Of a stretch of DNA of 64,000 bases, positions 1,231-63,000 are shown one piece after another. A model generated the notes under the pieces. The model did no database searches, was not told the origin of the DNA, and worked only from the letters and a program-made list of their open reading frames with translations. Within the stretch, counting starts at the first letter, position 1, and the number at the start of each line of letters is the position of its first letter. The stretch comes from Salinisphaera sp. T31B1 (GTDB lineage Bacteria; Pseudomonadota; Gammaproteobacteria; Nevskiales; Salinisphaeraceae). The translations under genes were made by a program, and so were the position numbers. The DNA lies in assembly GCF_040361275.1 (NCBI RefSeq), contig NZ_APNH01000006.1, positions 62,001 through 126,000 of the forward strand. Direction: 5' to 3'.

Positions 1231-1305
1231 CCCCGGTCCCTTTTCCCTTGCATGAATGTACCGCGCCAACTCCACGCGCGGCTTAATCCCTAGCGTTGTC
1301 TCCTA

Positions 1306-14822: not shown

Positions 14823-14877
14823 CACCGCGTCACGCACCAACAGGGCGCGCCACACGCCAACCGACCCCGTACCAACG

Positions 14878-27660: not shown

Positions 27661-27690
27661 GCAAAAATCGCGATATTTGACGCTTTGCGC
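27661..27690 (+). promoter_or_regulatory. FlhDC-type activator box 1 and promoter of the ssb operon
   Basis: CAAAAATCGCG, then ATAT-N6-CTTTGCG. The fixed six-base spacer before CTTT is common to all eleven copies. A -10-like TAGAT/TAGAAT follows at about 27712-27721. Confidence 0.6.
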
Positions 27691-27728
27691 AGTCTCTGTT
27701 GGCGTGATCGTTAGATAGAATCGACGCT

Positions 27729-27862
27729 GTTCTCTCGTCCATCTCGGACGACGCGCCGCCTTCGCGCAAAACGTGGCCACGGCAGCTGACCGTGTAATAA
27801 GCACAGCAATCCAGCCACCCAGCGGGGTCATCAACCCGTTGGGGCATGGTGCCTGTTGGGTT
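27729..27862 (+). ncRNA. Structured leader RNA L1 (ssb)
   Basis: The leader has three hairpins (TCGTCC/GGACGA, GCGC/GCGC, CACGG-CAGCTGA-CCGTG). A CAGC follows that can pair with the third loop. Then comes an H-type pseudoknot (CCCAgCGGG/CCCGTTGGG and CATCA/TGGTG). Four further copies of the same plan occur at 34.6, 35.7, 37.95 and 41.3 kb. The ssb ribosome site lies 25 bases beyond. Confidence 0.7.
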
Positions 27863-27894
27863 ATTAATCCATTGTTTAGACAGGAGTAATCATC

Positions 27895-28389
27895 ATGCAA
27901 CGAGGCATCAACAAAGCCATTCTAGTCGGCAACCTCGGCGCCGATCCGGAAGTTCGATACACCGCCGGCGGCACTGCTGTCGCCAACGTCACCCTTGCGA
28001 CCTCCGATACATGGAAAGACAAATCCACGGGCGAGTCGCAGGAGCGAACCGAATGGCATCGCGTCGTTTTGTTCAACCGTCTGGGCGAAATCGCGGGCGA
28101 GTATCTGCGTAAAGGTTCCAAGATCTACGTTGAGGGTCGTCTTCAGACCCGCAAATGGCAGAACAAGGATGGCGTCGATCAGTACACGACTGAGGTGATC
28201 GCCAACGATATGCAGATGCTCGACAGCCGATCGTCGTCACGTTCTGACGAGAATCAGCAGCAAGGTGCACCGCAAAATCGCGTACAGCGCCCGTCGCAGC
28301 AGCCTCGCCAACAAGCACCGCAGCAACAACGCCAGCCGGCGTTCGCGGGTGGTTTCGGCGAAGACGAAGAGGATGACATCCCCTTCTAG
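27895..28389 (+). CDS. ssb: Single-stranded DNA-binding protein
   Basis: The 164-residue protein has the OB-fold series of bacterial SSB ([61 protein letters not shown]). A Gln/Pro/Arg-rich linker and the acidic tip DDIPF follow, the tip that binds partner proteins. It coats single-stranded DNA during transfer and repair. It opens an operon with a possible annealing protein and a nuclease. AGGAG precedes the ATG. A pseudoknotted leader upstream may regulate it. Confidence 0.95.
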
Positions 28390-28445
28390 CAGTTACTAAT
28401 GCTGCTTCGTTTATTCTAACCACCTGATTTTTCAGGACATTAAAC

Positions 28446-28483
28446 CCCCGAGGGGCGCACCAGCCCCCGTGGGGCTGGTGTGC
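28446..28483 (+). other. Pseudoknot-like hairpin between ssb and the next gene
   Basis: CACCAGCCCC/GGGGCTGGTG forms a strong stem. An upstream CCCC can compete for the GGGG, giving the same a1-a2-b1-b2 order as the clearer modules at 29239 and 39321. It is the weakest of the three. Confidence 0.5.
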
Positions 28484-28508
28484 CTTCATTTAGCTATGGA
28501 GTCACACC

Positions 28509-29225
28509 ATGACAGCCAGTAACCAGAAAGTCCTGCTCGGCTTCGACGATGAAGGCGAAGCAATTCAGTACCGCAAGCTCTCATCTCGTCTGCCTTCGTT
28601 CCTCGAGGCGTATCCGCCGAGTCAGGATTACCAGGTGCGGATCGAATATCTCGATCCGATTGAAGCAAAGCCAGGGCTCAGCGCTCTATACCAGACCGCG
28701 ATCGCGGGTGGCCATAACCCGGCCGATATCGGTCTACCGCCGATCACCGGCAATACGATGATCTTTCGGGCCGAGCTTGTGAGCCCTAACGATAAGATCA
28801 TCGGTTCGGCATCGGCACTTGTGCTGATTCAGGAATATAAGGACTGGGAAAAAGGCGAAACTGCGGCACGCCAGCGACTGTTGGCATCGCTGGGTTTCGG
28901 GGGCGAGGTGTTCGATAACGATGAGGGTCGAGACCAACGTGGTCAGGGATTCACACCGGCACCGGTACCAGCCGCCGCTCCCAGTGATAAATCCTCATCG
29001 GCTGCTGTCGTTCCAATCAAGGGCAAGTCGCAGCCGACACCGGCTGTAGTCGAGCCGTCCGTGGAATCCACCTCCCAGAAGCCACAGGCGGCAACGGAGA
29101 GTTCGATACCGCAGGCGCTGGTCCGCCAGATCGACCATCAATCCGCACTCAAAGGGATCGATGTGCCCGAATATTCGAACCATGCCGAAGCCAAGGCAGT
29201 ACTCAAGCAGCTGATCCAGAGCTAG
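28509..29225 (+). CDS. Possible single-strand annealing/recombination mediator (ssb-exo operon)
   Basis: The 238-residue protein has an N-terminal domain of about 140 residues (VLLGFDDEGEAIQYRKLSSR; MIFRAELVSPNDKIIGSASA). It contains the phrase DWEKGETAARQRLLASLGF, like the ETAA-RAL-A-GF segment of ERF/Rad52-type annealing proteins. A disordered Pro/Ser-rich linker and a short C-terminal helix follow. It lies between ssb and a nuclease, where SXT carries bet and exo. Function is inferred from position and this one segment. Confidence 0.45.
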   Translation: MTASNQKVLLGFDDEGEAIQYRKLSSRLPSFLEAYPPSQDYQVRIEYLDPIEAKPGLSALYQTAIAGGHNPADIGLPPITGNTMIFRAELVSPNDKIIGSASALVLIQEYKDWEKGETAARQRLLASLGFGGEVFDNDEGRDQRGQGFTPAPVPAAAPSDKSSSAAVVPIKGKSQPTPAVVEPSVESTSQKPQAATESSIPQALVRQIDHQSALKGIDVPEYSNHAEAKAVLKQLIQS

Positions 29226-29238
29226 GCCTACCTACCCA

Positions 29239-29282
29239 CCGCCCGTGGAGTGTTTTATGCACCTCCCGGGCGGGGGAGGTGC
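29239..29282 (+). other. H-type pseudoknot before the exonuclease gene
   Basis: CCGCCCG (29239) pairs with CGGGCGG (29267). GCACCTCC (29259) pairs with GGAGGTGC (29275). The order a1-a2-b1-b2 makes an H-type pseudoknot ending 18 bases before the ATG at 29300. Confidence 0.6.
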
Positions 29283-29299
29283 GTCTGCTAGGAGCAGTC

Positions 29300-30160
29300 A
29301 TGAGCACTAGAACCTATCGACCGTCGGGTGTTCTCAAGTTCGAGGATTGCCCGCGGGCTTTTTACTATCAGTACGTGGAAGGGATCCGATCCGTCGGAGT
29401 TTCTTCAAACCTTGTGTTTGGTACCGCTGTGCATACGGCTGTCACCGGCTACCTCGATGGCAGCGTCTCAGATCCGGAAACGAAGTTTCGTGAGGAGTGG
29501 GCCGCAGGCATCGAGAAAGCCGAAGTTCACTACACATCGAGATTTGGTCCTGATGACCTGGAGGCGATCGGCGCCTCGTTATGCGATCAATTTCCTGAAG
29601 CATGGCAGGACACCGGCCTGGTGCCCTTGGTCGATGCCCAGGGCCCGGTCATCGAACGGCGATTCAAAGCCGAAGTCGCGCCTTCCGTGTACCTAAGCGG
29701 CCAGCTCGATATTGCGGCGATGAATTGTGACGGTGATGTTCAACTGGTTGACGTCAAAACGCCCGCAAGCGTCCCTGACGTGATCTGGCAATCGGACCAG
29801 TTGACTGGGTATCAATTACTCATCGAAGAGCATAAGCAGGAGCTGGGTATCGAGTCTGTTACGAAGGTTGGCTTCATGAACCTTCTCAAGCGCAAGGTTC
29901 CTACCGGCAAGAGCCGGAGCAAGGGACCGGAGATCCAGCCCATCGAGTTCCTACCCGCACGTAAGAGTGAGGATGTGCTCGAGTACAAGCAGAAAATCCG
30001 TTGGATGGATGAGGATGTTGTCAAAGGACGCTTTCCACGCCGCGGTCGTATGGCCCACAACACACCTTGTGGCATGTGCGACTTCGCCGGGTTGTGCCTG
30101 AATGGCGACTGGGAAGGACTCGAGCAACCACAGCAACAAGCCGTGGCCAATCTGGTCTGA
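29300..30160 (+). CDS. PD-(D/E)XK exonuclease, Cas4/RecB-like, with probable Fe-S cluster
   Basis: The 286-residue protein begins with the RPSGVLKFEDCPRAFYYQYV segment seen in Cas4/AddB-type nucleases. It has the catalytic core (SGQLDIAAM...VQLVDVKTP: LD then DxK, residues about 140-160). One N-terminal cysteine (FEDCP) and three C-terminal ones (CGMCDFAGLC) would hold a 4Fe-4S cluster. By position it corresponds to exo of the SXT bet/exo pair, supplying single-stranded ends. The ATG at 29300 follows GGAG. A two-way terminator ends the operon. Confidence 0.8.
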   Translation: MSTRTYRPSGVLKFEDCPRAFYYQYVEGIRSVGVSSNLVFGTAVHTAVTGYLDGSVSDPETKFREEWAAGIEKAEVHYTSRFGPDDLEAIGASLCDQFPEAWQDTGLVPLVDAQGPVIERRFKAEVAPSVYLSGQLDIAAMNCDGDVQLVDVKTPASVPDVIWQSDQLTGYQLLIEEHKQELGIESVTKVGFMNLLKRKVPTGKSRSKGPEIQPIEFLPARKSEDVLEYKQKIRWMDEDVVKGRFPRRGRMAHNTPCGMCDFAGLCLNGDWEGLEQPQQQAVANLV

Positions 30161-30191
30161 TCGATCGAACGCCCAGGACGTTCGATCAACA

Positions 30192-30220
30192 TAAAGGGCG
30201 CCTCTGGGGCGCCCTTTTTT
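30192..30220. terminator. Bidirectional terminator between the exonuclease gene and parB
   Basis: AAGGGCGCC-tctg-GGGCGCCC followed by six Ts. It separates converging units and could serve both strands. Confidence 0.75.
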
Positions 30221-31211
30221 ATTGCTGTTCGTCGTGCAGCCGGTTGAGTAAGTTTCGCCAGACCTTTCCCGCCTGGTTAAAGTCGCTCCAATCGATGCGC
30301 GAGTAGTCACCTTCAGGGTCGATGCGCGACACGAGCGTCTTGACCACCTCGCCGCTGTGAGCGCGCCCCATGTTCACATGAGACGGTGGCCGCCCCTTCT
30401 TGCGTTTCGGCGCTGGCTCAGGCTCGACATGGGTCTGCGCGGTACGTGCAGCCGAACGCCGTTGCGGCATCATGTCCTCGAAGTCTTGAGTCTCGATGCG
30501 CTGTTTGCGTTCGTGTCCGTGCAGCTTGGTCAGCTGCTCTGCAATCGTGATATTCGGTACCTGGTCACGCAACACAGCATCGCGTAGATCTGCTGGCCCT
30601 GTTATCACAGACCACCAGCGATAGGCTTGCGTTTTCGGAATGCGAACAGTCTCTTGCAGCTCGACTCCGCTGAGGATGGGCGAGCCGGCCGCTTCACGTT
30701 CGTCCAAAATGTTGAGCAAGCCCCGAAGCATCGCAGAGGCGGTCAGGTTGCGACGATGCACGTTTTCAATCAGATGGCGCGTTGCATTGCCGCTGGGCTT
30801 TTCCGGATAGACCATGACCTGCATTTCGTCGAGCCCAGCGAGCTGACAAGCCCACCAGCGCCGTTCGCCTGCCATGAGTTCGATAAGGCCCGTGCCGACG
30901 CGGTAGCCCAAGCCAGGTTGAAGCTGGCCATGGTCGCGTATGGTGAGTGCCAAATCGTTTATGTACTCAGCCTCCTCGCGCATAGCGGGGTCTTCGATGC
31001 CCTCCGGATTCGAAAGTTTCTCGAGCGTAATATCGAGCTTGCGAGCGTTTTTCGGCGAGGGCCGGATATCGTCAATCGGGACGTAGACCAGCGTTGCCTT
31101 CGCATCCCAATCCTTCGCAAGATGATCGCCCGTTTCGTTCAAGCCTGAATCCGATCGGCTAATCGTTTCAGCTTTACCCTTTAGGGGCGAGACGGATTTA
31201 CCTCTAAGCAT
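30219..31211 (-). CDS. parB: ParB plasmid partition protein
   Basis: The 330-residue protein has the ParB nuclease-like domain (VPIDDIRPSPKNARKL; GLIELMAGERRWWACQLAG; IENVHRRNLTASAMLRGLL). An HTH region (LQETVRIPKTQAYRWWSVI) and a basic C-terminus follow. It would bind the parS-like site at 32213 and bridge to ParA. The ATG at 31211 follows GGAG by seven bases and overlaps the end of parA; the frame further upstream is parA sequence. GERRWWA varies from the usual GERRYRA. Confidence 0.85.
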   Translation of the reverse strand: MLRGKSVSPLKGKAETISRSDSGLNETGDHLAKDWDAKATLVYVPIDDIRPSPKNARKLDITLEKLSNPEGIEDPAMREEAEYINDLALTIRDHGQLQPGLGYRVGTGLIELMAGERRWWACQLAGLDEMQVMVYPEKPSGNATRHLIENVHRRNLTASAMLRGLLNILDEREAAGSPILSGVELQETVRIPKTQAYRWWSVITGPADLRDAVLRDQVPNITIAEQLTKLHGHERKQRIETQDFEDMMPQRRSAARTAQTHVEPEPAPKRKKGRPPSHVNMGRAHSGEVVKTLVSRIDPEGDYSRIDWSDFNQAGKVWRNLLNRLHDEQQ

Positions 31212-32094
31212 TGTCATTCTCCGGGAAGAGCCGGTTTTCCAAAGCGACGCACCAGGGTTCGATAACCCTCCGTGCCGGATTGCTCGGACGCAAAGCGAAT
31301 ACAGACCGTGGCAGCAAACCTCGAACGTCGCGTTCGGCATAAGCGGCGCGGTTCGGTATCAGCGTTTCATTGAGATGTGGCGCCAGACCCGGCGAATCCT
31401 TTAGCTGCTTCAGTAGACCGTTATGGAGGCTTCGCACCTTCTGGTACTTGTTGACCTGCAACCCCAAGAGCTCAAGCGGATTATCCGACGCGCGCTCACG
31501 CTGTTCTTCAACCACCATGCCGATCACCGCATCAAGACCGTCGACGCATTGCTGTTCAAGTTCAACGGGGATGAGCGTATGGGTCGACGCCTTGATCACC
31601 CCGCGCATCAGAGATGATTCCATCGGACCCGTATCGAATATAACCATGTCGTATTCGGCGCTCAGCATTTCATCGCTAAAGAATTTTGCGATCGTACCCT
31701 CGATACTTTCGCGAACGTTGACGTCCTTTGCTTCTCTTACATTTAGAAGCTCCCGGCTGTCAGCCGGCAGCAGATCTAATCGTCCGTTCGGCAACTCCTC
31801 GAGCTGGTACTGGTAGATCACCCGATCAGGATAAAAGATATCCGCGGATGACGATCGACCGTTCCAGTCGGCGAGCGCTGGGTCTGTTGGATCAAAGTCG
31901 GGATTCCGTGGAGGCCTCTTGTACCGACCAGACGAAACCCTGTTCATAGGTAGATATAGAGAACTCAGCGAACATTGGTCATCAAAATCGACGATCAGAA
32001 CTCGGTGATTCCGGGAGAACCATTCGGCCAGGATGCGAACGAGCGTGGTCTTACCAACGCCCCCTTTTCGTTGCGGCAATGAGAGTCTGATCAC
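31204..32094 (-). CDS. parA: ParA plasmid partition ATPase
   Basis: The 296-residue Walker-type ATPase starts MIRLSLPQRKGGVGKTTLVR, with the deviant Walker A KGGVGKTT. It continues with VLIVDFDDQCSLSS and MVIFDTGPMESSLMRG. ParA forms DNA-bound ATP gradients that move the ParB-plasmid complex. It lacks an N-terminal HTH. A perfect palindrome 21 bases upstream of its start is the likely operator. It overlaps parB by a few bases. Confidence 0.88.
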   Translation of the reverse strand: MIRLSLPQRKGGVGKTTLVRILAEWFSRNHRVLIVDFDDQCSLSSLYLPMNRVSSGRYKRPPRNPDFDPTDPALADWNGRSSSADIFYPDRVIYQYQLEELPNGRLDLLPADSRELLNVREAKDVNVRESIEGTIAKFFSDEMLSAEYDMVIFDTGPMESSLMRGVIKASTHTLIPVELEQQCVDGLDAVIGMVVEEQRERASDNPLELLGLQVNKYQKVRSLHNGLLKQLKDSPGLAPHLNETLIPNRAAYAERDVRGLLPRSVFALRPSNPARRVIEPWCVALENRLFPENDNA

Positions 32095-32114
32095 GTCGTT
32101 CCTTCCAGAATTTT

Positions 32115-32136
32115 AGGGTATTTTTGAACAAAAATA
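32115..32136. promoter_or_regulatory. parA operator palindrome GGTATTTTTG-AA-CAAAAATACC
   Basis: A perfect 10+2+10 inverted repeat just before parA. Its core is shared with the palindrome at 21543-21562. Confidence 0.65.
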
Positions 32137-32212
32137 CCGGGTTTTAACTCATTGTTACTAAAGACGTATTTCTGATTTTCAAATAAGTCCCGCGCGGAAC
32201 TCGACCGCCAAA

Positions 32213-32228
32213 TGTTCCACGTAGAACA
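32213..32228. promoter_or_regulatory. parS-like site TGTTCCACGTAGAACA
   Basis: A near-perfect palindrome resembling the canonical parS TGTTTCACGTGAAACA (13 of 16 positions). It lies between parA and rep, next to parB's operon. Confidence 0.65.
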
Positions 32229-32254
32229 TCGCGCAATCCTACGTTTAAGGGCTT

Positions 32255-33637
32255 TCAGACCTTTAGATTCGCCTCCGTCCGCAAATCGACAATAGCGACG
32301 CCCTGCTCTAGCGCGCACCGGTTCTCGTCGTCTTTTGTCGGCGCAGGTAGGACATGCGTACGAACAAATGTTCTGAAGTGCGCAGTCACCATGGGTGCGT
32401 CCTCGTTCTTGGTGTAGCGCTTCATCAGCAACGGCGTGCATTTGAGTACCTCCTCATAAAACCGGTCCCAGGTCTGTTGGTACTCGTTACTCGTTGCACT
32501 GTTCACCCACTCCTGGAAACGCCAAGCGGGAAAGATATTGTTGTTGAACTCAGCGAGCTTTTCTCGGGCAGCCTTTCGGCGCTCATCATCGTTGTTTCGC
32601 TCGTTTGTAGTTTTTTCATTGCCTGAGAGCGCGATGATCGCATCGTAATCAATGTCCTTGGGTCTGTAGTCGCCTTTCAACGCGTTGAACGTGTACCCGG
32701 GTACCCCCTTGCTACGGATCTTGCCGGCCCTAATTCGTTCTGAAACGACTAGGAGATTGTCGTAAATATACTGATCGTCGTATTCGTCCAGCATGTTGAC
32801 GGCGGTATTGCGCTCCAAACCAAAGGCAAGAAGAGCCTCATATGTAGGAAGTCGATCAGCGACTATCTCATCGCTCACATCGGCTGCGAGCAACGGCGGC
32901 ATCGGTGGGCCGTCGTAGTCGGTGTTTTCCAGAACGATGAACTGAATTGCTAAGACTTCGTGGCCGTGCTTCTTCAAGATCGGCTCGACAAAGATCTCCG
33001 TGGTCTCGTTGATCTCCTTGACCGAAGGCTTGACGACATCTCTGTTTAGTATTTTGAATTCTGGATATCGTCCCGACACTCCCATGAGAGCCCGGAATGT
33101 ATCTAACGACCAGGCCCGTGTACGACCGAGATCGCGATAACGTGCACAGTTCTCGTATAACGCGAGGCTTTGCTTTCTGACTAGTTGGTGCTGTACCGAA
33201 TAGTTAATTCGTGCAAAGACTTCAGGATCGAGAATGCTTTCGACAATCTCAACGGAATACGAATATTTGATGATGTCGTCGACCATCTCATAGCCGGCGA
33301 GCCAGCTCGAACCGCCTAGGCGTTGACGAAGGTTCTCATCGATGTAGTTCCACTCAACAGTTTTCTTCAGCAAACCGTTAAGTATTCGCCGCAGGTTATT
33401 CGTGCTTTGCCTCGAGCCGGTAACCAGCTTCGCGAACTGATTCCGGTCGATCCAGTGCTGACGAACACCGCCACCGAAATTCTCACTATCGGCGTGGAGT
33501 GACATCGCATTGGCAAGCAGCACATTGACTGCAATCCGTTCTTTGGCTGTCAGTGGTGCTGCCGAGTGAACAGCTCCAACGTGTTTCCGAAGGATCGTAG
33601 CCTTCTGCATCCCTGGTAACGTGATTTGTGTCGGCAT
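32255..33637 (-). CDS. rep: Rep_3-family plasmid replication initiator
   Basis: The 460-residue protein has two winged-helix-type regions typical of RepB/Rep_3 initiators: residues 25-135 (LTAKERIAVNVLLANAMSLH; VTGSRQSTNNLRRILNGLLK) and 140-230 (VEIVESILDPEVFARINYSV, then KQSLALYENCARYRDLGRTR, FRALMGVSGRYPEFKILNRD and VKPSVKEINETTEIFVEP). A long C-terminal region of about 200 residues is extra and unrecognised. It would bind the 17 iterons upstream. Iteron-like sequence overlaps its start codon and promoter, which fits autorepression. Confidence 0.85.
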   Translation of the reverse strand: MPTQITLPGMQKATILRKHVGAVHSAAPLTAKERIAVNVLLANAMSLHADSENFGGGVRQHWIDRNQFAKLVTGSRQSTNNLRRILNGLLKKTVEWNYIDENLRQRLGGSSWLAGYEMVDDIIKYSYSVEIVESILDPEVFARINYSVQHQLVRKQSLALYENCARYRDLGRTRAWSLDTFRALMGVSGRYPEFKILNRDVVKPSVKEINETTEIFVEPILKKHGHEVLAIQFIVLENTDYDGPPMPPLLAADVSDEIVADRLPTYEALLAFGLERNTAVNMLDEYDDQYIYDNLLVVSERIRAGKIRSKGVPGYTFNALKGDYRPKDIDYDAIIALSGNEKTTNERNNDDERRKAAREKLAEFNNNIFPAWRFQEWVNSATSNEYQQTWDRFYEEVLKCTPLLMKRYTKNEDAPMVTAHFRTFVRTHVLPAPTKDDENRCALEQGVAIVDLRTEANLKV

Positions 33638-33684
33638 GGTGAGAACTATTCTTTGTGTGATATCACCTCAGCGTGATGTTACAC
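33638..33684. promoter_or_regulatory. Iteron-like operator at the rep promoter
   Basis: GGTGAGAACTATTC adjoins the rep start codon. TGTGATATCACC and GTGATGTTACAC follow. They are variants of the iteron ends GTGA and TCAC, as expected for Rep autoregulation. Confidence 0.5.
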
Positions 33685-33906
33685 GTCTACCATAGAAGAG
33701 CAATGAGTTGTTGAACGGAAAATCTCACCTCATCCGTCTTTTTCGGCGGAGCTGTATGACAGCAAGCGATTGATTCTTTGCAGTCGATCTTCGATGAGCT
33801 TTTAAAACGGCTGCTTGCTAGCTGTATCTAACCTATCTCTTAAGCAACTTATATATAACTATAGCGTCTCAAAAACACATACAAGACAATGAGTTACGAT
33901 AATTCA

Positions 33907-34481: not shown

Positions 34482-34485
34482 TCGC

Positions 34486-34512
34486 GAAAGTTGCATATAT
34501 GAGCGCTTTGCC
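34486..34512 (+). promoter_or_regulatory. Activator box 2 before the WGR gene
   Basis: GAAAGTTGC, TATA, six bases, CTTTGCC. It begins 5 bases after the last iteron, so replication origin and promoter adjoin. Confidence 0.6.
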
Positions 34513-34556
34513 TGGTCACTGCTGACGATCAGTTCCGATAGAGTGTTGGCTCCTAC

Positions 34557-34680
34557 GCGTTCTCAATGAACGCCACGCTGCTCGCGTGTAAAACCGCAGC
34601 CACGGCAGCTGACCGCGTACCAAGTACAGCAACTATTACCCCGACGGGACAGATGTTCCCGGTGGGGGGCATGTGTTTCC
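34557..34680 (+). ncRNA. Structured leader RNA L2
   Basis: Hairpin 1 is GCGTTC/GAACGC here instead of TCGTCC/GGACGA, a compensated change. Hairpin 3 keeps the CAGCTGA loop. The pseudoknot pairs are CCCCGaCGGGA/TTCCCGgTGGGG and ACAgATG/CATgTGT. Confidence 0.7.
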
Positions 34681-34711
34681 AAGGGCCACTAAGCCATCAG
34701 GAGTAATGCAT

Positions 34712-35056
34712 ATGTCAGAGATTTATCTTACTTTCGACAACACCAACGGTACCCAGAAATTCTGGACAGGCCGTACGGATCCTTCGACCGGCCGCGTCGT
34801 AATCGAACACGGCAAGGTAGGGGCCAGACCCCGCACGATCGAGATTCCGAAGGAACGTTTTTCGGAGCCGACGCCGGAACTTGAAATGCACGCTCGGGCG
34901 CGCAAAAAGCTCAACGAGGGCTACTATGAGGACAGCCCTCTACAGAGCACCCCGGTAACGCCTAGCCCCCAATCTTCGGCAAAGCCAGTGCCGAAGTCGG
35001 TAGACATACATGCCGCACTCAGCTCAGGTGATCAAGCGGGTGGGTGGTTCTTTTAA
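34712..35056 (+). CDS. WGR-type domain protein with C-terminal WFF
   Basis: The 114-residue protein has a WGR-like domain: EIYLTFDNTNGTQKFWTGRT, then GRVVIEHGKVGARPRTIEIP, then a helix ELEMHARARKKLNEGYYE. A flexible Ser/Pro-rich tail ends GGWFF. WGR domains bind nucleic acid or assist DNA-end recognition in other proteins. Two paralogues follow (35186, 36764), and all three share the terminal WFF. The ATG at 34712 has AGGAG eight bases upstream. Confidence 0.72.
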   Translation: MSEIYLTFDNTNGTQKFWTGRTDPSTGRVVIEHGKVGARPRTIEIPKERFSEPTPELEMHARARKKLNEGYYEDSPLQSTPVTPSPQSSAKPVPKSVDIHAALSSGDQAGGWFF

Positions 35057-35185
35057 CCCGGCAAGCCATAGCGTTCGCAACGAACGCCATATACCCAGGC
35101 ATCAGTCATGGGTTCATCCCGACCGCTGTGCATACGTCCCATTGGGGCCTGTGTCCACGGTCCTACAATCGATAGGTACATAGCA

Positions 35186-35542
35186 ATGGACAGTGTTACG
35201 CTGATCTATACCTATCCCGACGGGCGCAAGAAGTACTGGCGCGGAATGGTCGATCATCGACGAAGCGAGGTCGTTTTGGAGTACAGCGAGGCAACGCGTC
35301 GCGTACGTCAGACGGTTATCGACCAGGCGCGGCTCAAGAAGCCTACGCTCGAGCTTGAGTTGGAGTGGAGAGCCCAGAAGAAACTCCGTAAGGGTTACGT
35401 CCACCTCCAGGTCGAACAGTACGACGAGAACGATCCCGACGATTCATCAGCCTCGGAGTCCTCCATGCCCGCGTCGGCGAGTATGGCTCGGGTGCTGGCG
35501 TTGGTGAACGCAGATGATTGCGATGCGGATTGGTTCTTCTAG
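35186..35542 (+). CDS. WGR-type domain protein paralogue 2, C-terminal WFF
   Basis: The 118-residue product repeats the pattern of its neighbour (LIYTYPDGRKKYWRGMVDHR; VVLEYSEATRRVRQTVIDQA; LELEWRAQKKLRKGYVHLQ) with an acidic Ser-rich linker and a terminal DADWFF. The start is taken at 35186; an in-frame ATG at 35108 would add 26 residues unlike the family. It belongs to the same unit as the first WGR gene. Confidence 0.68.
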   Translation: MDSVTLIYTYPDGRKKYWRGMVDHRRSEVVLEYSEATRRVRQTVIDQARLKKPTLELELEWRAQKKLRKGYVHLQVEQYDENDPDDSSASESSMPASASMARVLALVNADDCDADWFF

Positions 35543-35582
35543 CCAGACCCAGCGGCTGATAGGTACGACAGGGGCAGGGCGG

Positions 35583-35611
35583 CGAAACTACGCTTTATCG
35601 GCGTTTATCCC
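35583..35611 (+). promoter_or_regulatory. Activator box 3 before the MoxR/CobS-like gene
   Basis: GAAACTACGC, TTTA, TCGGCG, TTTATCCC. A diverged but correctly spaced copy. Confidence 0.55.
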
Positions 35612-35647
35612 GCCCCGCATTCTGCTCGCGCGCTCCTAAGCTCTAGG

Positions 35648-35780
35648 TTCTTCTCGTCCTTTTCGGACGACACGCTGCCCGCGTGTAAAGCCGGGTATCG
35701 GCAGCTGACCGATTCACAAGCGCAGCATCCCAAGCCTTCCCGTCGGGGACGTATTCCCCCGATGGGGGCGTGCGTCTTCT
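35648..35780 (+). ncRNA. Structured leader RNA L3
   Basis: Hairpins TCGTCC/GGACGA, ACACGC/GCGTGT, ATCGG-CAGCTGA-CCGAT. The pseudoknot is CCCgTCGGGG/CCCCGAtGGG plus GACG/CGTC. The ATG of the ATPase gene lies about 30 bases beyond, after CAGGAG. Confidence 0.7.
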
Positions 35781-35810
35781 GTTCGGGTTCAATCTGTTCA
35801 GGAGACTGTT

Positions 35811-36767
35811 ATGACTACTCAGCGTTTTTCGGTTCGCCATACCTTCGATATCGACGCCCCGGACGGGATCGAGGTCGCAGGCCTGGCACAAGCCGGCATG
35901 TTTACCCCGGCTGTGGATACCAACTACAAGTTCCGCAAGTCGGTGGTATCTGATGTTCTGGCCTGGTTGCAGTTCTCGGATGAGCCGCTCTACATCACGG
36001 GCCCCACGGGTTCCGGTAAGTCGAGTCTCGTCTGCCAGGTCGCGGCCCGTTTGAACCTCTCGGTCCAGAGGGTGACGGCGCACTCGCGTCTGGAAGCCCC
36101 CGAACTCATTGGGCATCACACCCTCGTCGATGGTGACATGATGTTTGTGGACGGGCCGTTGACCACGGCCATGCGATACGGGCACTTATTCTTGCTCGAT
36201 GAGATCGATCTGCTCGACCCGGCAACGGCTGCTGGTTTGAACGGGATTCTGGAGGGAGACCCTCTGATGATTCCGGAAAACGGCGGCGAGATAGTCAAGC
36301 CGGCCGACGGGTTTCGCTTCGTGGCAACCGGCAATACGGCCGGTGGTGGCGATCGAAATGGCATGTTCCAAGGCACCATGCGCCAGAATATGGCGTTCAT
36401 GGATCGCTTCTGGATGATGGAAGTGGGTTATCCCGAACAAGCTGATGAGGAGTCGATCCTCGAAACGACAGCACCGGGTTTGCCAGAGGTGGTTCGTGCA
36501 CCGCTGGTGGAAACTGCTAATACGATCCGTCAGGCCTTCATGGGTGATGGCCGGGGTGATGCGCCGCCGCTCGATGTCACGATGTCCACCCGTACACTCG
36601 TACGTTGGGCACAGATGATCACGATGTTTCGTGGTCTGAGTCGTCAGGGTATCAATCCTGTCTCGCATGCACTGGATCGTGCGTTAGCGTACAAGGCTTC
36701 GCCCGAGAGCCGTGAAGCGTTGCACGAGATCGTTCAGCGTCACCTCGGTGATGGTGCGCTGTCATGA
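35811..36767 (+). CDS. MoxR/CobS-like AAA+ ATPase
   Basis: The 318-residue protein has Walker A ITGPTGSGKSSLV near residue 63, Walker B LFLLDEIDLLD near 126, a sensor-1 FRFVATGNT and a C-terminal lid (MSTRTLVRWAQMI). CobS/MoxR ATPases work with a VWA-domain partner to remodel or load metal into a client. Its likely partner is the CobT-like VWA protein at 39392. SXT and IncA/C elements have a similar pair of unknown role. It overlaps the next WGR gene by 4 bases (ATGA). Confidence 0.85.
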   Translation: MTTQRFSVRHTFDIDAPDGIEVAGLAQAGMFTPAVDTNYKFRKSVVSDVLAWLQFSDEPLYITGPTGSGKSSLVCQVAARLNLSVQRVTAHSRLEAPELIGHHTLVDGDMMFVDGPLTTAMRYGHLFLLDEIDLLDPATAAGLNGILEGDPLMIPENGGEIVKPADGFRFVATGNTAGGGDRNGMFQGTMRQNMAFMDRFWMMEVGYPEQADEESILETTAPGLPEVVRAPLVETANTIRQAFMGDGRGDAPPLDVTMSTRTLVRWAQMITMFRGLSRQGINPVSHALDRALAYKASPESREALHEIVQRHLGDGALS

Positions 36768-37444
36768 GCGTTGTGCGAATGATCCTCGAAAAGCCCGACC
36801 AGACCGTCTGGGTCTGGGAGGGCGAGGCTGATCGTGCGGGGGGCCGTGTCGTTATTCGACACGGCAACCTCGACGGCAAGCTTCAAAAGGTCGTCGTAGA
36901 ACAGGGTAGTTTCACGCAGGACGATGCCGAGCTTGAGCTACAGCATCGTGTAGCCCAGAAATGGGCCGAAGGCTACGTGGAAGAAAGAGCTCTGGCCGAC
37001 CATGTGAACAAGCCGGTTAAGGCTCCCGCCCGTAACGGGGAGTGGCCGGATGTCCACTTGATGCCCTCAATTTCGTTTCGCGATGCGAGCGAGCCGTCAT
37101 CGACGGCGCAACCGCTCGATCTCGAGCGATCGATTGCTTCGATCGTCACGGGAGAGTTCGGACTGGATATCGCGCCGTTCTGGGGAGCCAGGCCACGAAC
37201 CCTGTCGAGCGAAATGGACCTGTCCTTGCCCATGCTTATCTACGCCTGTGCGCTTGCGCAGCAAGATCTGGTGACCATGGCGGACGAGCAGGGGAACAGT
37301 CTTGACCCCGTAGCGTTCATCGATCGCTACTGGCTCGAAGACGTTGAACCGCGGATCAATACGATTCTGTCCGATCTCGGGCTGGTATCGATGCGCCGCG
37401 CCCTCGATCTCGCGTCAAGTGAGTCCGAGGAATGGTTCTTCTGA
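36764..37444 (+). CDS. WGR-type domain protein paralogue 3 with extra domain, C-terminal WFF
   Basis: The 226-residue protein has the same N-terminal domain (MILEKPDQTVWVWEGEADRA; VVIRHGNLDGKLQKVVVEQG; ELQHRVAQKWAEGYVEE). A second helical domain follows (LPMLIYACALAQQDLVTMAD; FIDRYWLEDVEPRINTILSD), ending ESEEWFF. It is translationally coupled to the AAA+ ATPase, so it may be a client or adaptor of it. Confidence 0.7.
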   Translation: MSVVRMILEKPDQTVWVWEGEADRAGGRVVIRHGNLDGKLQKVVVEQGSFTQDDAELELQHRVAQKWAEGYVEERALADHVNKPVKAPARNGEWPDVHLMPSISFRDASEPSSTAQPLDLERSIASIVTGEFGLDIAPFWGARPRTLSSEMDLSLPMLIYACALAQQDLVTMADEQGNSLDPVAFIDRYWLEDVEPRINTILSDLGLVSMRRALDLASSESEEWFF

Positions 37445-37483
37445 CGCCTAGATAGACACGCCTGCCGTACCAGGTCAGTTCAC

Positions 37484-37552
37484 GACACTGCCGGTACGGC
37501 GGCAGTGTCATCACGATCCCGACCGGGGAGTTCCACTCCCCGGCGCGGGGGT
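37484..37552 (+). other. Two strong hairpins before the 64-codon gene
   Basis: GACACTGCCG-gta-CGGCGGCAGTGTC and CCGGGGAGT-tcc-ACTCCCCGG form stems. A GGGGGTT follows. There is no T-tract after either, so they are not terminators. Confidence 0.5.
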
Positions 37553-37585
37553 TCCCTGGTCAGTTTCGTGCACGGAGGTCATGCC

Positions 37586-37780
37586 TTGAGCACGCAACAG
37601 CTGGCTATGTTTCCCATCAATAAACGGCTCTATCACACGGCGACGCGCTTTGTTCGTCCTGCACGACGCAATGCCGATCGCCAGCGTGATATTCGGGCCT
37701 GCATGGAGTTCTTCCCCGAAGGCTCAGGTTGGCGCCAGGCCGTCGAGCTGGCCTGTCAGATCCAACACATCGAGCTCTAG
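37586..37780 (+). CDS. Small hypothetical protein with TTG start
   Basis: The 64-residue product (LSTQQLAMFPINKRLYHTAT; ACMEFFPEGSGWRQAVELAC) starts at TTG, seven bases after GGAGG. No ATG is in frame nearby. It ends the MoxR transcription unit before a terminator. Not recognised. Confidence 0.55.
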   Translation: MSTQQLAMFPINKRLYHTATRFVRPARRNADRQRDIRACMEFFPEGSGWRQAVELACQIQHIEL

Positions 37781-37803
37781 GGAGGGAGCGACAAAAGCGA
37801 AGG

Positions 37804-37828
37804 GGCGCCGGTTAATCCGGCGCCTTTG
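37804..37828 (+). terminator. Terminator after the MoxR unit
   Basis: GGCGCCGG-ttaat-CCGGCGCC with a short T-run. Confidence 0.7.
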
Positions 37829-37883
37829 TCCAATACTCGCGCGCGGGTATTCGACAAGGGTGTCAGTCCCTGCGGGACGAGCA

Positions 37884-37910
37884 GAAAGTGTCGAAAAGAC
37901 ACGCTTTGCG
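37884..37910 (+). promoter_or_regulatory. Activator box 4 before the DUF3150 gene
   Basis: GAAAGTGTCG-AAAA-GACACG-CTTTGCG. The inner GTGTC/GACAC is a perfect inverted repeat. Confidence 0.65.
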
Positions 37911-37947
37911 GCCCGTCACCGACAGCACCAACGCGCAGACTCGAAGG

Positions 37948-38077
37948 TGTTATCTCGTCCTTTTCGGACGACACGCTACCCGCGTGTAAAGCCGGGTCTC
38001 GATAGCTGATCGAGTCATAAAAGCAGCGCCAAAGCTCACCCATAGGGATGTCATCTGTCCCTATGGGACAGCTGCGT
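37948..38077 (+). ncRNA. Structured leader RNA L4
   Basis: Hairpins TCGTCC/GGACGA, ACACGC/GCGTGT, CTCGAT-AGCTG-ATCGAG. The pseudoknot stems are CCATAGG/CCTATGG and CTGTC/GACAG. It is followed by a terminator/antiterminator pair. Confidence 0.72.
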
Positions 38078-38080
38078 CCT

Positions 38081-38122
38081 CTGGGTGTTTTTCACCCAGG
38101 TTTCGCGCCCTGGGTCTTTTTT
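38081..38122 (+). promoter_or_regulatory. Attenuator: mutually exclusive antiterminator and terminator hairpins
   Basis: CTGGGTG (38081) can pair with CACCCAG (38093). The same ACCCAGG can instead pair with CCTGGGT (38109), directly followed by CTTTTTT. The two forms exclude each other and sit between the leader RNA and the gene start at 38159. Confidence 0.65.
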
Positions 38123-38158
38123 AGATCCGGGCTGCGCGAGCCCCAGGAGGTAGTAGTT

Positions 38159-39307
38159 GTGGAAACTCGTGTACTTGAAGAAGTGGTGGTCATTCATCCT
38201 GAAATCCACCTGTGGTCGGGCCGCAAGCGTCTGCGTCGTGAGGATCTCAAGAAGATCTCTGGCGATCAGCTGCCGCCGTCCGATCTGGCGTCTCTGGGGT
38301 CGAAGCGTATTTGCGATCCCAAGGACGTCTCCGTGTTCGAGAAGATCAAGCGTCGTGTCGAGCGTGACTGTCAGGAAGTGGGGATTCGCTTTCTGGGTGG
38401 CTACGCGATTCCCGAGCGTCGCTTCGATGAGCTGATTGGCAAGGTCAAGCAGAACGAGAGTGAGTTCAATGCCGCACGGCAGGACTTTCTCCAGCGCTAT
38501 GACCAGTCGATCGAAGGCTGGGTGCGATCCCACTCCCAGTGGGCAGAGGTCATCCGGCGTGCTGTAAGCCCGTTGGGTGTCGTCGAGCGGCAACTGCGTT
38601 TCGACTTTCAGGTCTTCCGGGTGCAGCCGCTGGCGTCGTATGAAGCCGGACCCGAGGAAACAGGCATGCAGCGCAAGCTGGATAGCCTGCCGGCCAAGCT
38701 GTTCCAGGAGGTCGCCACCGAAGCGGGTGTGGCGCTGGAGCAGACGTTCAAAGGGCGTAGCGAGATCACGCGTCGGGCACTGCGCCCGATTCGTCGTATT
38801 CGCGACAAGCTCGATGGACTGTCGTTTCTTGATGCTCGGGTTGCCCCGGTCGTCGAATGGATCGACGAGACGCTGGAGAGCGTGCCGAAAACCGGCCCGA
38901 TCGAAGGCAAGACCCTCAACGACATTCAGGCCACGGTCTACGTGCTGGCCGACTCCGAAAAGCTCAAAGAGCTTGGGGCGTCGCGCTTGGCGCAAACGCC
39001 GGTCGATCTGGATGACGAGGATGAGGGCGACGATACCGAGTCCGTTACCGACATGGTGACGAACACGGTTACGCAGGAGCACGACACCGATAGCCAGCCG
39101 GCTGAGGTCGAGTCTTCCGACGAGGATGTGGAACAGGTCGAGCCTGAGCCGCAGCCATCCGAACCCGACGCCAATGTGTCGGTGCCGGATACCCACCAGG
39201 CCGAAAGCACCAACGTCGTTCCGTTCGTGGAAAGGGAAGTCGAGGACTCCGTAGAGGAGACCGAAGCTGAACCCCAACCCGCAGCGGTGGCTGGCTGGTT
39301 CTTCTAA
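38159..39307 (+). CDS. DUF3150-family protein with C-terminal WFF
   Basis: The 382-residue protein (VETRVLEEVVVIHPEIHLWS; then long helices with FDELIGKVKQNESEFNAARQ) matches the DUF3150 family known from ICEs and IncA/C plasmids; its role is unknown. The C-terminal 90 residues are acidic and disordered and end VAGWFF. A GTG at 38159 follows AGGAGG by nine bases; the ATG at 38048 lies inside the pseudoknot and is rejected. It is the first gene of the VWA unit. Confidence 0.75.
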   Translation: METRVLEEVVVIHPEIHLWSGRKRLRREDLKKISGDQLPPSDLASLGSKRICDPKDVSVFEKIKRRVERDCQEVGIRFLGGYAIPERRFDELIGKVKQNESEFNAARQDFLQRYDQSIEGWVRSHSQWAEVIRRAVSPLGVVERQLRFDFQVFRVQPLASYEAGPEETGMQRKLDSLPAKLFQEVATEAGVALEQTFKGRSEITRRALRPIRRIRDKLDGLSFLDARVAPVVEWIDETLESVPKTGPIEGKTLNDIQATVYVLADSEKLKELGASRLAQTPVDLDDEDEGDDTESVTDMVTNTVTQEHDTDSQPAEVESSDEDVEQVEPEPQPSEPDANVSVPDTHQAESTNVVPFVEREVEDSVEETEAEPQPAAVAGWFF

Positions 39308-39320
39308 GCCTTATCTCCCG

Positions 39321-39373
39321 CCGCACGCGGGCTGTGTTCATGCGAATGAACACGCCCCCGTGCGGGGGGCGTG
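39321..39373 (+). other. H-type pseudoknot before the CobT-like gene
   Basis: CCGCACG (39321) pairs with CGTGCGG (39359). CACGCCCC (39351) pairs with GGGGCGTG (39366). A third small hairpin (GTGTTCAT/ATGAACAC) lies between. It ends 18 bases before the ATG and just before GGAGGG. Confidence 0.65.
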
Positions 39374-39391
39374 TCTTTGGAGGGTATGTAG

Positions 39392-41155
39392 ATGAGCAAT
39401 CTCACGAAGTCGCTGCCGATCGTGGCGAAGATTCTGGGTGACAAGTACGGCGTTCGTGTCGCGATTGGCGGAGGCCGGGCGTGTACCGATGGCCAGACGA
39501 TCTATCTGCCGGCACTGCCGGCCGACGATGAAAAGGCCGCGGTACTGGTTCGTGGTTATATCGACCATGAAGCGGCGCATGTGCGCTTCACTGAAGGCGG
39601 TCTTGAGGGGTCACCCCTTGAGCGTTCTTTGCAGAATATCCTCGAGGATATTCGTATCGAGCGTCGTATGGGCAAGCGTTTCCCCGGCTGCGTGAGCAAC
39701 CTGGATCGCTTGGCTTCGACGCTGGTGGCCGATGGCATGTTCGAACGGCTGCATGACGACGCCCATCCGGGTGCGGTCTTGCAGGGTTATCTGCTACATC
39801 GAATGCGCCATGACGTGCTCGAACAGTCTGCGTTGCGTGATCTGGCTGACCATAGCGAATCGTTGTTCCACAAAGTCTTCTCGAAGGGGAAGGCTACGCG
39901 GATTTCGGCGATCGCCTGGCAGGCTGAAAACGCGGCTTCGACGGTCGAGGTCAAGGCGCTGGTGGGTCGTATTCTCGAATCCATGCAGGAGCCCGAGGAG
40001 GAAGAAGAGCCGGAGTCCGGCGATTCGCAGGATGCCACGCAACAGGCATCGGATACCTCTGAGGGGAAGCAGGATGACAGTCAGCAGTCAGGGCAGAGCG
40101 ACGACTCGCAATCCGATGACTCGGGGGCGGATCAAAGCGATGCCTCGGGTGAGGACGGCGAGGATGATCAGAGTTCGAGTTCGCAGCAATCGCCGGCCGA
40201 TGTGTCGGACGACGATCAAGCGGATGAGAGCCCATCGTCGAGTCAGGACAGCCACGGGCACGGTCGCGGACACGGTGGTCAGGACGACATCGAGGAAGCG
40301 GTCGAGCGTGCGTTGTCGGCTACAGAGCAAGACCTCATGGATGACGTGGCCAAGCAGGTCGCAGAGATGCTCGAGGAGCATGCGAGCGATTGTCCTTACG
40401 AAGCCGCTGTCGAGGTGGCTGAGGAGAGGAACGACCAAATCCGTGCGTTCGGTGTGATCAACGCCAAGGAAGCCCGCAAGGCGACCAACGCGCTGCGGTC
40501 ACGTCTGGATGGTCTGATTCAGGCGTCAAAGCAACAGCGAAACCCGCCTCGCCGTACTGGGCGGCGGCTGGATTCGCGCTCGCTGGCTCGTCTGAGCTGT
40601 GGTGATACGCGGGTGTTCAAGTCTTCGAGTGAGCGCAAGGCCGTCAATACGGCGGTTCATGTGCTGCTCGATCGGTCTGGCTCCATGGGCCATCAGATCG
40701 CTACGGCTTGCGCCGCGGTGTATGCCACCGCAGTCGCTTTGGAAGGTATCTCTGGCGTGAATCTGGAAACCGCTGCGTTTCCGGTGAGTCAGGACGGTGT
40801 GAAAACGCTCACGCGCTTTGGTGAGCGGATTTGCATTGACGCCTACGAGATGGGCGTCGATGGATCCACGCCGATGGCCCAGGCGCTGTGGCATGTCGCA
40901 TACAGGCTGGTGGCGCAGAAGCAGCCCCGCAAGATCGCTCTCGTGATCACCGATGGTGACCCGGACGATCGCGCGGCGACTGTGGACGTGATCGCTCGCA
41001 TGGAAGCCGCTGGCATCGAGACGATCGGGATCGGGATTGGAAGTAACGCCAAAGAACATCTGTTCTCGCGTCACCGCAAGATCCTCTCGGTCGATGAGCT
41101 GCCGAACGCGCTATTCGGGTTGCTTGAGCAACCGCTGATGGCGCAGTCGGCTTGA
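39392..41155 (+). CDS. CobT-like VWA-domain protein with HExxH motif
   Basis: The 587-residue protein has an N-terminal HEAAHVRFTE (HExxH, residues 64-73) with a following ILEDIRIERR helix. A long acidic Ser/Asp/Gln-rich linker (residues about 190-300) follows, then a C-terminal VWA domain with MIDAS motif DRSGSMG near residue 429 and VITDGDPDD near 518. CobT-like proteins bind divalent metal and pair with CobS/MoxR ATPases. Here the partner is probably the ATPase at 35811. The client is unknown. Confidence 0.82.
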   Translation: MSNLTKSLPIVAKILGDKYGVRVAIGGGRACTDGQTIYLPALPADDEKAAVLVRGYIDHEAAHVRFTEGGLEGSPLERSLQNILEDIRIERRMGKRFPGCVSNLDRLASTLVADGMFERLHDDAHPGAVLQGYLLHRMRHDVLEQSALRDLADHSESLFHKVFSKGKATRISAIAWQAENAASTVEVKALVGRILESMQEPEEEEEPESGDSQDATQQASDTSEGKQDDSQQSGQSDDSQSDDSGADQSDASGEDGEDDQSSSSQQSPADVSDDDQADESPSSSQDSHGHGRGHGGQDDIEEAVERALSATEQDLMDDVAKQVAEMLEEHASDCPYEAAVEVAEERNDQIRAFGVINAKEARKATNALRSRLDGLIQASKQQRNPPRRTGRRLDSRSLARLSCGDTRVFKSSSERKAVNTAVHVLLDRSGSMGHQIATACAAVYATAVALEGISGVNLETAAFPVSQDGVKTLTRFGERICIDAYEMGVDGSTPMAQALWHVAYRLVAQKQPRKIALVITDGDPDDRAATVDVIARMEAAGIETIGIGIGSNAKEHLFSRHRKILSVDELPNALFGLLEQPLMAQSA

Positions 41156-41159
41156 ACCA

Positions 41160-41187
41160 AGCCCCGGAGAAATCCGGGGCTCTTTTC
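41160..41187 (+). terminator. Terminator after the VWA gene
   Basis: AGCCCCGGA-gaaa-TCCGGGGCT followed by CTTTT. Confidence 0.8.
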
Positions 41188-41221
41188 CGAGTGCCGGGCG
41201 CCGGCATTGGGACAAGAGGGT

Positions 41222-41250
41222 GAAAGTAGCCGAAAAGCGCGTCTTTCCAG
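41222..41250 (+). promoter_or_regulatory. Activator box 5 before the toprim gene
   Basis: GAAAGTAGCCG-AAA(A)-GCGCGT-CTTTCC. It lies 35 bases after the terminator. Confidence 0.62.
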
Positions 41251-41286
41251 TCTGGGTACGCGATCGCCGCGTGCCAGACTGACAGT

Positions 41287-41427
41287 GTTCTCTCATCCCT
41301 TTGTGGATGACACGTCGCCGGCGTGTAAAACCCGGTCTCGATAGCTGGTCGAGTCATCAAAAGCAGCATCAAGCCAACCCTGGTCCGGGCGGACACGTAT
41401 CGCCCCGGCTGGGGTGGCGCGTGGACG
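41287..41427 (+). ncRNA. Structured leader RNA L5
   Basis: Hairpin 1 is TCATCC/GGATGA (compensated change). Hairpin 3 is CTCGAT-AGCTG-GTCGAG. The pseudoknot is ACCCtGGtCCGG/CCGGCtGGGGT plus CACGtatCGCC/GGCGCGTG. Further competing stems (CCCGATT/AATCGGG; CCAGGGCC/GGCCCTGG with a T-run) lie between it and the gene. Confidence 0.7.
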
Positions 41428-62999: not shown

Positions 63000-63000
63000 T

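Follow-up and report, generated by a model that had tools for sequence, protein, structure and literature searches.

Repeated pseudoknot leaders on a Salinisphaera plasmid and on drug-resistance plasmids point to a possible shared RNA control switch

Introduction

This work concerns a structured leader that stands repeatedly before genes of a conjugative plasmid of Salinisphaera sp. T31B1. The DNA analysed, here called the window, is a stretch of 64,000 nucleotides (contig NZ_APNH01000006.1, positions 62,001 to 126,000) and is part of the 180,063-base contig C6 in a 4.36-Mb genome. Conjugation genes of C6, the window plasmid, encode a TraI_2 relaxase (presumably of the MOBH type), a TraD-type coupling protein, TraE, TraK, a TrbI/TraB-type protein and TraV. 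Five leaders, L1 to L5, lie in the window, each with two hairpins followed by an H-type pseudoknot. The pseudoknot covaries and recurs on several groups of conjugative elements.

Results

The leaders and the genes behind them

A first-pass annotation of the window had placed five leaders at 27729, 34557, 35648, 37948 and 41287. All five are present, with cores at 27728-27809 (L1), 34548-34632 (L2), 35646-35728 (L3), 37948-38029 (L4) and 41286-41369 (L5), and all their features lie on the plus strand. The count of five is right for the window, but the contig has eight copies; the other three, outside the window, are at C6:49445, C6:59703 and C6:138755. The genes after these three are small and have no Pfam match over cut-off. 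The copy at C6:59703 (own_B) differs in hairpin 1, and no operator-like motif (see below) lies at the usual distance from it.

Hairpins 1 and 2 were assigned from pairing and covariation, and pseudoknots are given with their scores from R2, a covariance model of the pseudoknot module that holds stem 1 and lacks stem 2, the pairing of loop GCTG with a downstream CAGC. L1 has hairpin 1 at 27735..27751, hairpin 2 at 27752..27766 with a non-standard inner pair, and the pseudoknot at 27778..27807 (41.2 bits; stem 1 27779-27782/27790-27793, GCTG 27785-27788/CAGC 27804-27807). The hairpins of L2 (34557-34573 and 34574-34588; 34557..34588 together) are followed by a pseudoknot at 34602..34630 (34.2 bits; GCTG 34608-34611/CAGC 34627-34630) with an A.C mismatch in stem 1. 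L3 has the same order, with hairpins at 35654-35670 and 35671-35685 (35654..35685) and a pseudoknot at 35697..35726 (37.3 bits; GCTG 35704-35707/CAGC 35723-35726). The corresponding parts of L4 are at 37955-37971, 37972-37986 (37955..37986) and 37998..38027 (37.2 bits; GCTG 38005-38008/CAGC 38024-38027), and those of L5 at 41293-41310, 41311-41325 (41293..41325) and 41337..41367 (39.0 bits; GCTG 41344-41347/CAGC 41364-41367).

Two more hairpins, A and B, absent from the first-pass list, are predicted to fold before the start codon. More specifically, A and B lie at 27818-27843 and 27845-27897 in L1 (27818..27897), where B would span the Shine-Dalgarno sequence and the start codon, at 34639-34667 and 34670-34714 in L2 (34639..34714), and at 35739-35766 and 35774-35806 in L3 (35739..35806). 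In the predicted hairpin B of L3, GTCTTCTG pairs with CAGGAGAC and covers the Shine-Dalgarno sequence.

Regarding the genes behind the leaders, the first-pass annotation named ssb, a WGR gene, MoxR, DUF3150 and toprim. Four of these were confirmed by Pfam, but the WGR match is weak. L1 precedes ssb (27895..28389, PF00436, 3.8e-40). L2 precedes a small gene of 114 amino acids (34712..35056, with AGGAG before its ATG) that is weakly WGR-like (13.8 bits, cut-off 22). L3 stands before a MoxR/CbbQ-type AAA ATPase gene (35811..36767; PF07728 4.4e-24, PF08406 2e-14), L4 before a DUF3150 gene (38159..39307; PF11348 6.9e-91, from residue 43 of the longest open reading frame, ORF) and L5 before a toprim/primase-type gene (41531..42607; PF13362 4.1e-16, PF08273 3.3e-13). 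Likely starts differ from those of the longest ORFs in three genes: the L2 gene at 34712, the DUF3150 gene at about 38159 (GTG 38159 with AGGAGG upstream; longest ORF from 38048) and the toprim/primase-type gene at ATG 41531 (with GGAGG; longest ORF from 41414). The genes follow one another as in the SXT-like element pR997 and Xanthomonas citri pLH276.1: ssb, nuclease or bet/exo, MoxR, DUF3150, CobT/VWA, toprim or primase. We take pR997 to be an SXT/R391-like element, a label that agrees with its gene order. Between the ssb operon and L2, long ORFs on the minus strand form a block (30219-33637) that is possibly inserted cargo.

Pairing and covariation in the leader

In all eight copies on the contig a stem closes the loop (C/T)AGCTG(A/G), and CAGC follows 15-16 nucleotides after AGCTG, with an A-rich strand between. 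Seven of the eight have a stem 1 of 4-6 uninterrupted pairs; L2 has three pairs, a mismatch and one more pair. A search of the 4.36-Mb genome with R2 at E<=0.01 gave eight matches, all on C6 and all on the plus strand. Run with fast filters, this search scored 19 of its 1859 first-look candidates; a second run scored 82 of 1865 and returned the same eight.

Covariation was evaluated in 26 distinct modules from the window plasmid, IncC, IncA, Aeromonas, Vibrio, SXT-like and Methylomonas elements, many of them related. Pairing was found in 97.4% of cells, a value that is partly by construction because many rows came from a descriptor that demands pairing in both stems. That descriptor listed 37 distinct copies, from which three chance-like ones were removed (in stretches L044 and L053, and on the minus strand of L035) and to which L2 and the SXT-like moxR copy were added by hand, giving 36; an earlier form of it made 10 matches in 3.62 Mb of shuffled plasmid sequence, one strand. 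Both sides of a pair are changed in 26 cells as compared to 5.5 in shuffles (none of 500 reaches 26) and at most 5 in slid structures. The covariation score is 0.381, against 0.160 for shuffled and at most 0.095 for slid versions. The number of pairs with two-sided change (four) and the number of pair types are inside the shuffle range. Four rows leave the innermost position of stem 1 unpaired.

The two stems behave differently. The first-pass annotation stated that the pseudoknot stems vary in sequence and remain paired; this is true of stem 1, apart from the mismatch in L2, but stem 2 (GCTG/CAGC) is identical in all five leaders of the window, and its two-sided changes come only from other elements. 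Its fourth pair is G-C in 24 rows and A-U in two. The GCTA/TAGC form is present at the operon head of the SXT-like element, as found by eye, and in one Vibrio penaeicida copy, which was also recovered by R2, a model without stem 2.

Hairpins 1 and 2 were evaluated in seven copies of the plasmid, leaving out own_B, which is divergent at both. Pairing is 98.7%, and 5 of the 11 pairs have changed on both sides, a number reached by none of 500 shuffles and compared to at most one such pair in slid controls. Taken by itself, the core has an unremarkable folding energy (z -0.75 to -1.60 with RNAfold, which is blind to pseudoknots). The earlier claim of a conserved RNA with covariation is supported for stem 1 and for hairpins 1 and 2, and copies occur in other plasmid groups as well.

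Distribution on conjugative elements

To sample diverse plasmids, twenty records were chosen by hand, one from a blastn list and the others from two tblastn lists with 4538 and 1143 entries. At E<=0.1, R2 found 62 matches in eight of them, a few being weak (E 0.0075-0.082): 8 in IncC pVCR94, 7 in IncA p5955A, 7 in Aeromonas pAhD4-1, 12 in V. penaeicida, 12 in V. furnissii, 13 in V. alginolyticus, 2 in SXT-like pR997 and 1 in Methylomonas pLM6. The IncC, IncA, Aeromonas and Vibrio plasmids are of the MOBH type. Four of the eight (IncC, IncA, V. penaeicida and SXT-like) were known beforehand to hold copies, and three of these had fed R2; the Aeromonas, V. furnissii, V. alginolyticus and Methylomonas records are newly matching. 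On X. citri pLH276.1 there is no R2 match at this threshold despite the equal gene order.

All copies lie on one strand in seven of the eight matching records, one of which has a single copy. V. alginolyticus has eleven copies on one strand and two on the other; those two score like SXT-like copies, and one of them is just before moxR. A blastn search with a single IncC copy matched 864 plasmid records, 843 of them typed as conjugative. Single R2 matches in three genomes (G182, E 0.0042; G306, E 0.0069; G035, E 0.0024) were taken as chance. The sequence-finder R1 gave eight weak matches (E 0.0066-0.099), one each in 8 of 193 relatives, which is at noise level.

Distance to the start codon and the Shine-Dalgarno hairpin

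Among 19 annotated rows from IncC, IncA, V. penaeicida and SXT-like elements, which are related plasmids, 17 have the copy 92-121 nucleotides before the start codon. The two outlying rows have 141 and 355 nucleotides, and in the latter an unannotated short ORF starts sooner. In IncC stretch L035 (7639-7800), the gene-like feature next after a leader copy is a short ORF that lacks annotation but has a Shine-Dalgarno sequence of its own. In the window plasmid the distance is 99-111 nucleotides for five copies and about 155, 158 and 188 for three.

Most folds place two hairpins between the pseudoknot and the start codon, the second predicted to contain or abut the Shine-Dalgarno sequence. For the last 50 nucleotides before the start, z is -2.46 in the pseudoknot leaders of IncC, V. 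penaeicida and SXT-like elements (11 of 14 below -2) and -0.60 in other IncC genes (2 of 19 below -2). Pseudoknot-free genes have -1.99 in the IncC region (12 of 25 below -2) and -2.21 in the SXT-like region (6 of 9). In the predicted folds of IncC, Vibrio and SXT-like elements the start codon directly follows a hairpin at the Shine-Dalgarno sequence, and for these elements the modelled structures support a hairpin gate. Some IncC copies have the Shine-Dalgarno sequence only partly paired.

This arrangement can be compared with the translational attenuator of SXT, where bet and exo are highly transcribed and restrained by a strong attenuator before bet, as reported from experiment (review PMC4542580). 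The same review describes the bet attenuator in IncA/C plasmids as well, citing Garriss et al. 2013. The shared feature is a two-hairpin stretch before the start codon, present in the SXT-like element at bet and at most of its neighbours. The systems differ in that bet itself has no pseudoknot, and the accessible text of PMC4542580 does not mention one. Along SXT-like stretch L034 (11609-21000), a CCC..GGG hairpin and then a Shine-Dalgarno hairpin precede most genes from the operon head to the primase.

The promoter side

An operator-like motif of 28 nucleotides, found by eye and then with a matrix, precedes each leader of the window on the plus strand (27661..27688, 34484..34511, 35582..35609, 37882..37909 and 41220..41247 for L1 to L5). 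It lies 119-123 nucleotides before the pseudoknot in seven of the eight copies of the plasmid. The sites had already been chosen by eye when the matrix was built, so this spacing is partly a matter of choice. The leave-one-out score is 12.5-28.5 for the sites and -6.3 for own_B, and scores of at least 18.0 also occur at six places away from the leaders. The chance level is available for scores over 9, with a mean of 12.2 per shuffled contig. An upstream 'hairpin 0' of the window plasmid copies was rejected as a part of the RNA; a DNA operator is likelier, given its fixed place before a -10-like hexamer. This hexamer was seen by eye about 12 nucleotides before hairpin 1. Because of the motif and the hexamer we infer that the transcript starts a few bases before hairpin 1. 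For the window plasmid such a start, under putative activator control, is supported by these sequence features.

Further motif-like sites in the window are at 2725, 2908, 43969, 49449 (minus strand), 52979 and 63137 (minus strand), with a weaker one at 63000. Site 52979 falls inside the start of the longest ORF of traV, so the traV start may be placed too early. SetCD sites in SXT are likewise reported inside the start of traV (PMC4344509).

A candidate activator is encoded at 476..1275 on the minus strand by a FlhC-type gene (479-943; PF05280, 43.3 bits) and a FlhD-like gene (943-1275; PF05247, 20.4 bits), both cut-offs being 27. The FlhC-type protein is of the same type as AcaC, and its FlhD-like neighbour is under the cut-off. 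We regard the pair as a candidate AcaCD/SetCD-type activator of the leader promoters. AcaCD activates bet/exo in IncC (PMC4207636), and bet/exo transcription is driven from SetCD/AcaCD promoters (PMC4542580). A divergent homologous gene adjoins the operon-head leader in the window plasmid and in the SXT-like, IncC, IncA and V. penaeicida elements. The V. penaeicida gene carries the annotation DUF1845, though Pfam gave no such match for the window plasmid protein. By gene order we equate its site with the s063-s089 region of SXT. That region has the strongest SetCD peak (PMC4344509).

RNA or DNA

The working strand was evaluated from wobble pairs, with G.T and A.C scored alike in the 36 copies, related ones included, and identical stems counted once. 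In the upstream region there are 45 G.T and 11 A.C (0.804; shuffled 0.594, standard deviation 0.065, highest of 60 shuffles 0.800), and in the downstream region 59 and 20 (0.747; shuffled 0.447, standard deviation 0.065, highest 0.580). Stem 1 alone is even, 2 to 2. Since G.T prevails on the coding strand and the structure is in register with the start codon, the leader probably works as mRNA.

This bears on the proposal, also raised in the first-pass annotation, that the leaders are structured single-stranded DNA promoters or priming sites (Frpo/ssi-like), active during single-strand entry of the plasmid. Frpo/ssi promoters are likewise repeated, structured and near ssb in conjugative plasmids (PMC11541004). 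The region has ssb and DUF3150/MoxR/CobT-type genes, single intergenic stretches of IncC and Vibrio hold many strong hairpins, and the linker of L5 is, by eye, an almost perfect long inverted repeat. By its description, Frpo/ssi is set apart in that the DNA stem holds the -35 and -10, and it would need them on the transferred template strand, whereas the wobble bias favours the coding strand for the leader structure, which is placed relative to the start codon. A template-strand structure would give A.C on the coding strand, where G.T is found. Moreover, the last hairpin is registered on the Shine-Dalgarno sequence and AUG, and in the window plasmid the operator-like motif (seven of eight copies) and the -10-like hexamer precede the copies. 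Plasmids of the hns type are reportedly depleted of known Frpo sequences (PMC12826799, BLAST-based), and pVCR94 has an H-NS-family gene. Judged from wobble pairs, hairpin register and promoter-side motifs, the DNA promoter is very improbable.

Comparison with known RNA families

No Rfam family was over threshold in the window, in the SXT-like element and six other plasmid stretches, or in the IncC region; the two matches of the scan that covered this region are group II introns from the Methylobacter source. When the IncC leaders were scanned permissively against Rfam, the only matches were to eukaryotic families and looked like chance. The first-pass annotation had suggested a comparison with STAXI RNA, which has pseudoknots near ssb and other DNA-handling genes (PMC2864571), as the leaders do. 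The STAXI model (RF01728) has no match at E<=10 in the whole genome, and the STAXI pseudoknot is repeated two to three times in tandem, unlike the leaders with one each. STAXI is not a match for the leaders.

The closest family is the DUF3085 RNA (RF02959). L1 aligns to its model with 23.9 bits, below the cut-off of 40.6, and is the best match in the genome (E 0.122; E 0.024 for 196 bases); no other copy of the window was reported at E<=10. Both RNAs have a loop beginning AGCUGG with a downstream CCAGC strand (AGCTG/CAGC in all eight leaders, one pair shorter) and a CAACCC..GGG hairpin after the pseudoknot. The DUF3085 RNA has a longer loop and one more pseudoknot pair. It also has an additional hairpin after stem 1 and ahead of the pseudoknot strand, a place where the leaders have an A-rich strand of 9-11 nucleotides.

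A blastn search with the RF02959 consensus led to the Azonexus hydrophilus plasmid NZ_CP151407.1, which has 19 RF02959 matches at E<=1, 16 at E<=4.5e-4 and six over the cut-off; some of the matches are in close pairs. By eye, seven of nine displayed copies have the pseudoknot AGCTGG/CCAGC, the CCC..GGG hairpin, a Shine-Dalgarno hairpin and ATG. R2 gave no useful E-value on the Azonexus copies (best 0.93). Over 398 genomes RF02959 had no match at E<=1e-4, and its controls were equally silent, so this is no sign of absence.

The leaders and the DUF3085 RNA look like branches of one kind because the order of elements agrees. Judged from sequence, the leaders stand outside RF02959 in the strict sense, and the orphan DUF3085 RNA is their nearest family and a close structural relative. 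The first-pass statement that the leader matches no named class stands as far as Rfam thresholds go, but the DUF3085 RNA is related below its cut-off. Our literature search, with most subscription journals outside its coverage, found no printed description of the pseudoknot.

Discussion

Our results suggest that the leaders form a multi-copy 5'-leader regulon with an activator-driven promoter, a pseudoknot sensor and a translational gate, a reading to which we give an even chance. In the window plasmid the transcript would probably begin a few bases before hairpin 1. The RNA would then form hairpins 1 and 2 and, after them, a compact H-type pseudoknot crossed by an A-rich strand; covariation supports this pairing. 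Two hairpins follow, the second predicted at or over the Shine-Dalgarno sequence as a translational gate, with the start codon about 90-120 nucleotides from the pseudoknot in most annotated copies. The pseudoknot, with its loop and tail constant and its stem free to vary, would be read by one common partner, most likely a protein of the element or the host. This partner would set the opening of the gate, the lifetime of the message, or both, on all copies at once.

A constant loop and A-rich strand, with a variable stem and a size of about 34 nucleotides, would also suit a riboswitch in which the pseudoknot binds a small molecule. The preQ1-I riboswitch has such a topology, with a short stem and an A-rich crossing strand. 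No riboswitch is among the Rfam matches of the stretches that were scanned. Those downstream genes that have a known domain serve DNA handling or encode ATPases and suggest no evident common metabolite, and 2-13 copies per plasmid would be unusual. A riboswitch is therefore improbable.

Several observations weigh against the regulon. Three of the four pairs of stem 2 are invariant and so uninformative, and 12 of the 20 plasmid records are without an R2 match at E<=0.1. The motif of own_B, if it is one, is 149-150 nucleotides away. In the window plasmid there is no contrast in the last 50 nucleotides (z -1.27, 1 of 8 below -2, as compared to -1.03, 4 of 16, for other genes). The test of Shine-Dalgarno accessibility had a modest outcome. 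A level of 5% or less was reached by 5 of 14 and 4 of 8 leaders with a pseudoknot; among genes of the same regions that lack one the counts were 4 of 22 and 3 of 9, and among other genes they were 1 of 13 and 2 of 11. Attenuator-like hairpins also precede genes without a pseudoknot, so the pseudoknot is not required for the gate itself. Finally, no promoter was seen by eye before internal IncC copies, and 9 of the 11 internal copies in IncC and Vibrio come after strong hairpins, with z under -2 and as low as -6.49. Two promoter-side copies are without strong upstream hairpins (z +1.58 and -1.90). A position at the 5' end is thus not general.

The hairpins before internal IncC copies (in stretch L010 at 14750-14860, 19620-19680, 24080-24140 and 28460-28530) may be, for instance, processing or pause sites. 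Two other explanations start from them. One is that the pseudoknot modifies RNA polymerase so that long operons are read, as put- or antiterminator-like RNAs do. Copies stand at operon heads and again within long gene series, and most internal ones are behind hairpins that could hold up the polymerase. By eye, without a dedicated terminator scan, these hairpins have no clear U-run; pseudoknot-free genes also come after hairpins, and the near-constant distance to the start codon suggests translation. We find an elongation RNA unlikely, though the least so among the alternatives. The other explanation is an element of mRNA stability or processing only (5'-end protection, RNase III-type processing) that regulates nothing. 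It agrees with the probable 5' end in the window plasmid and with long duplex hairpins that could be cleaved before most internal IncC/Vibrio copies, but it leaves the invariant loop sequence and the Shine-Dalgarno hairpin unexplained, and we rate it as improbable as the riboswitch.

If the regulon exists, a more specific and rather doubtful proposal can be made. A factor encoded by the element might read the pseudoknot on up to a dozen mRNAs and lift all their translational gates in concert. Genes for recombination and establishment, transcribed beforehand, would then be released only at a defined moment of the transfer cycle. The DUF3085 RNA and the leaders might be two branches of one superfamily that is spread over conjugative elements of gamma- and betaproteobacteria.

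Among the important carriers of multidrug resistance are the IncC plasmids and the SXT/R391 elements, whose activator circuits (AcaCD and SetCD) are known. The RNA layer is nearly blank in the accessible literature, where one attenuator, before bet, is on record. A pseudoknot shared by many genes gives a testable handle on how attenuation of the bet type may be released, and the leaders offer a context for the orphan DUF3085 RNA. The recurrent knotted leader on drug-resistance plasmids points to a shared, RNA-based switch of which there is hardly any description.

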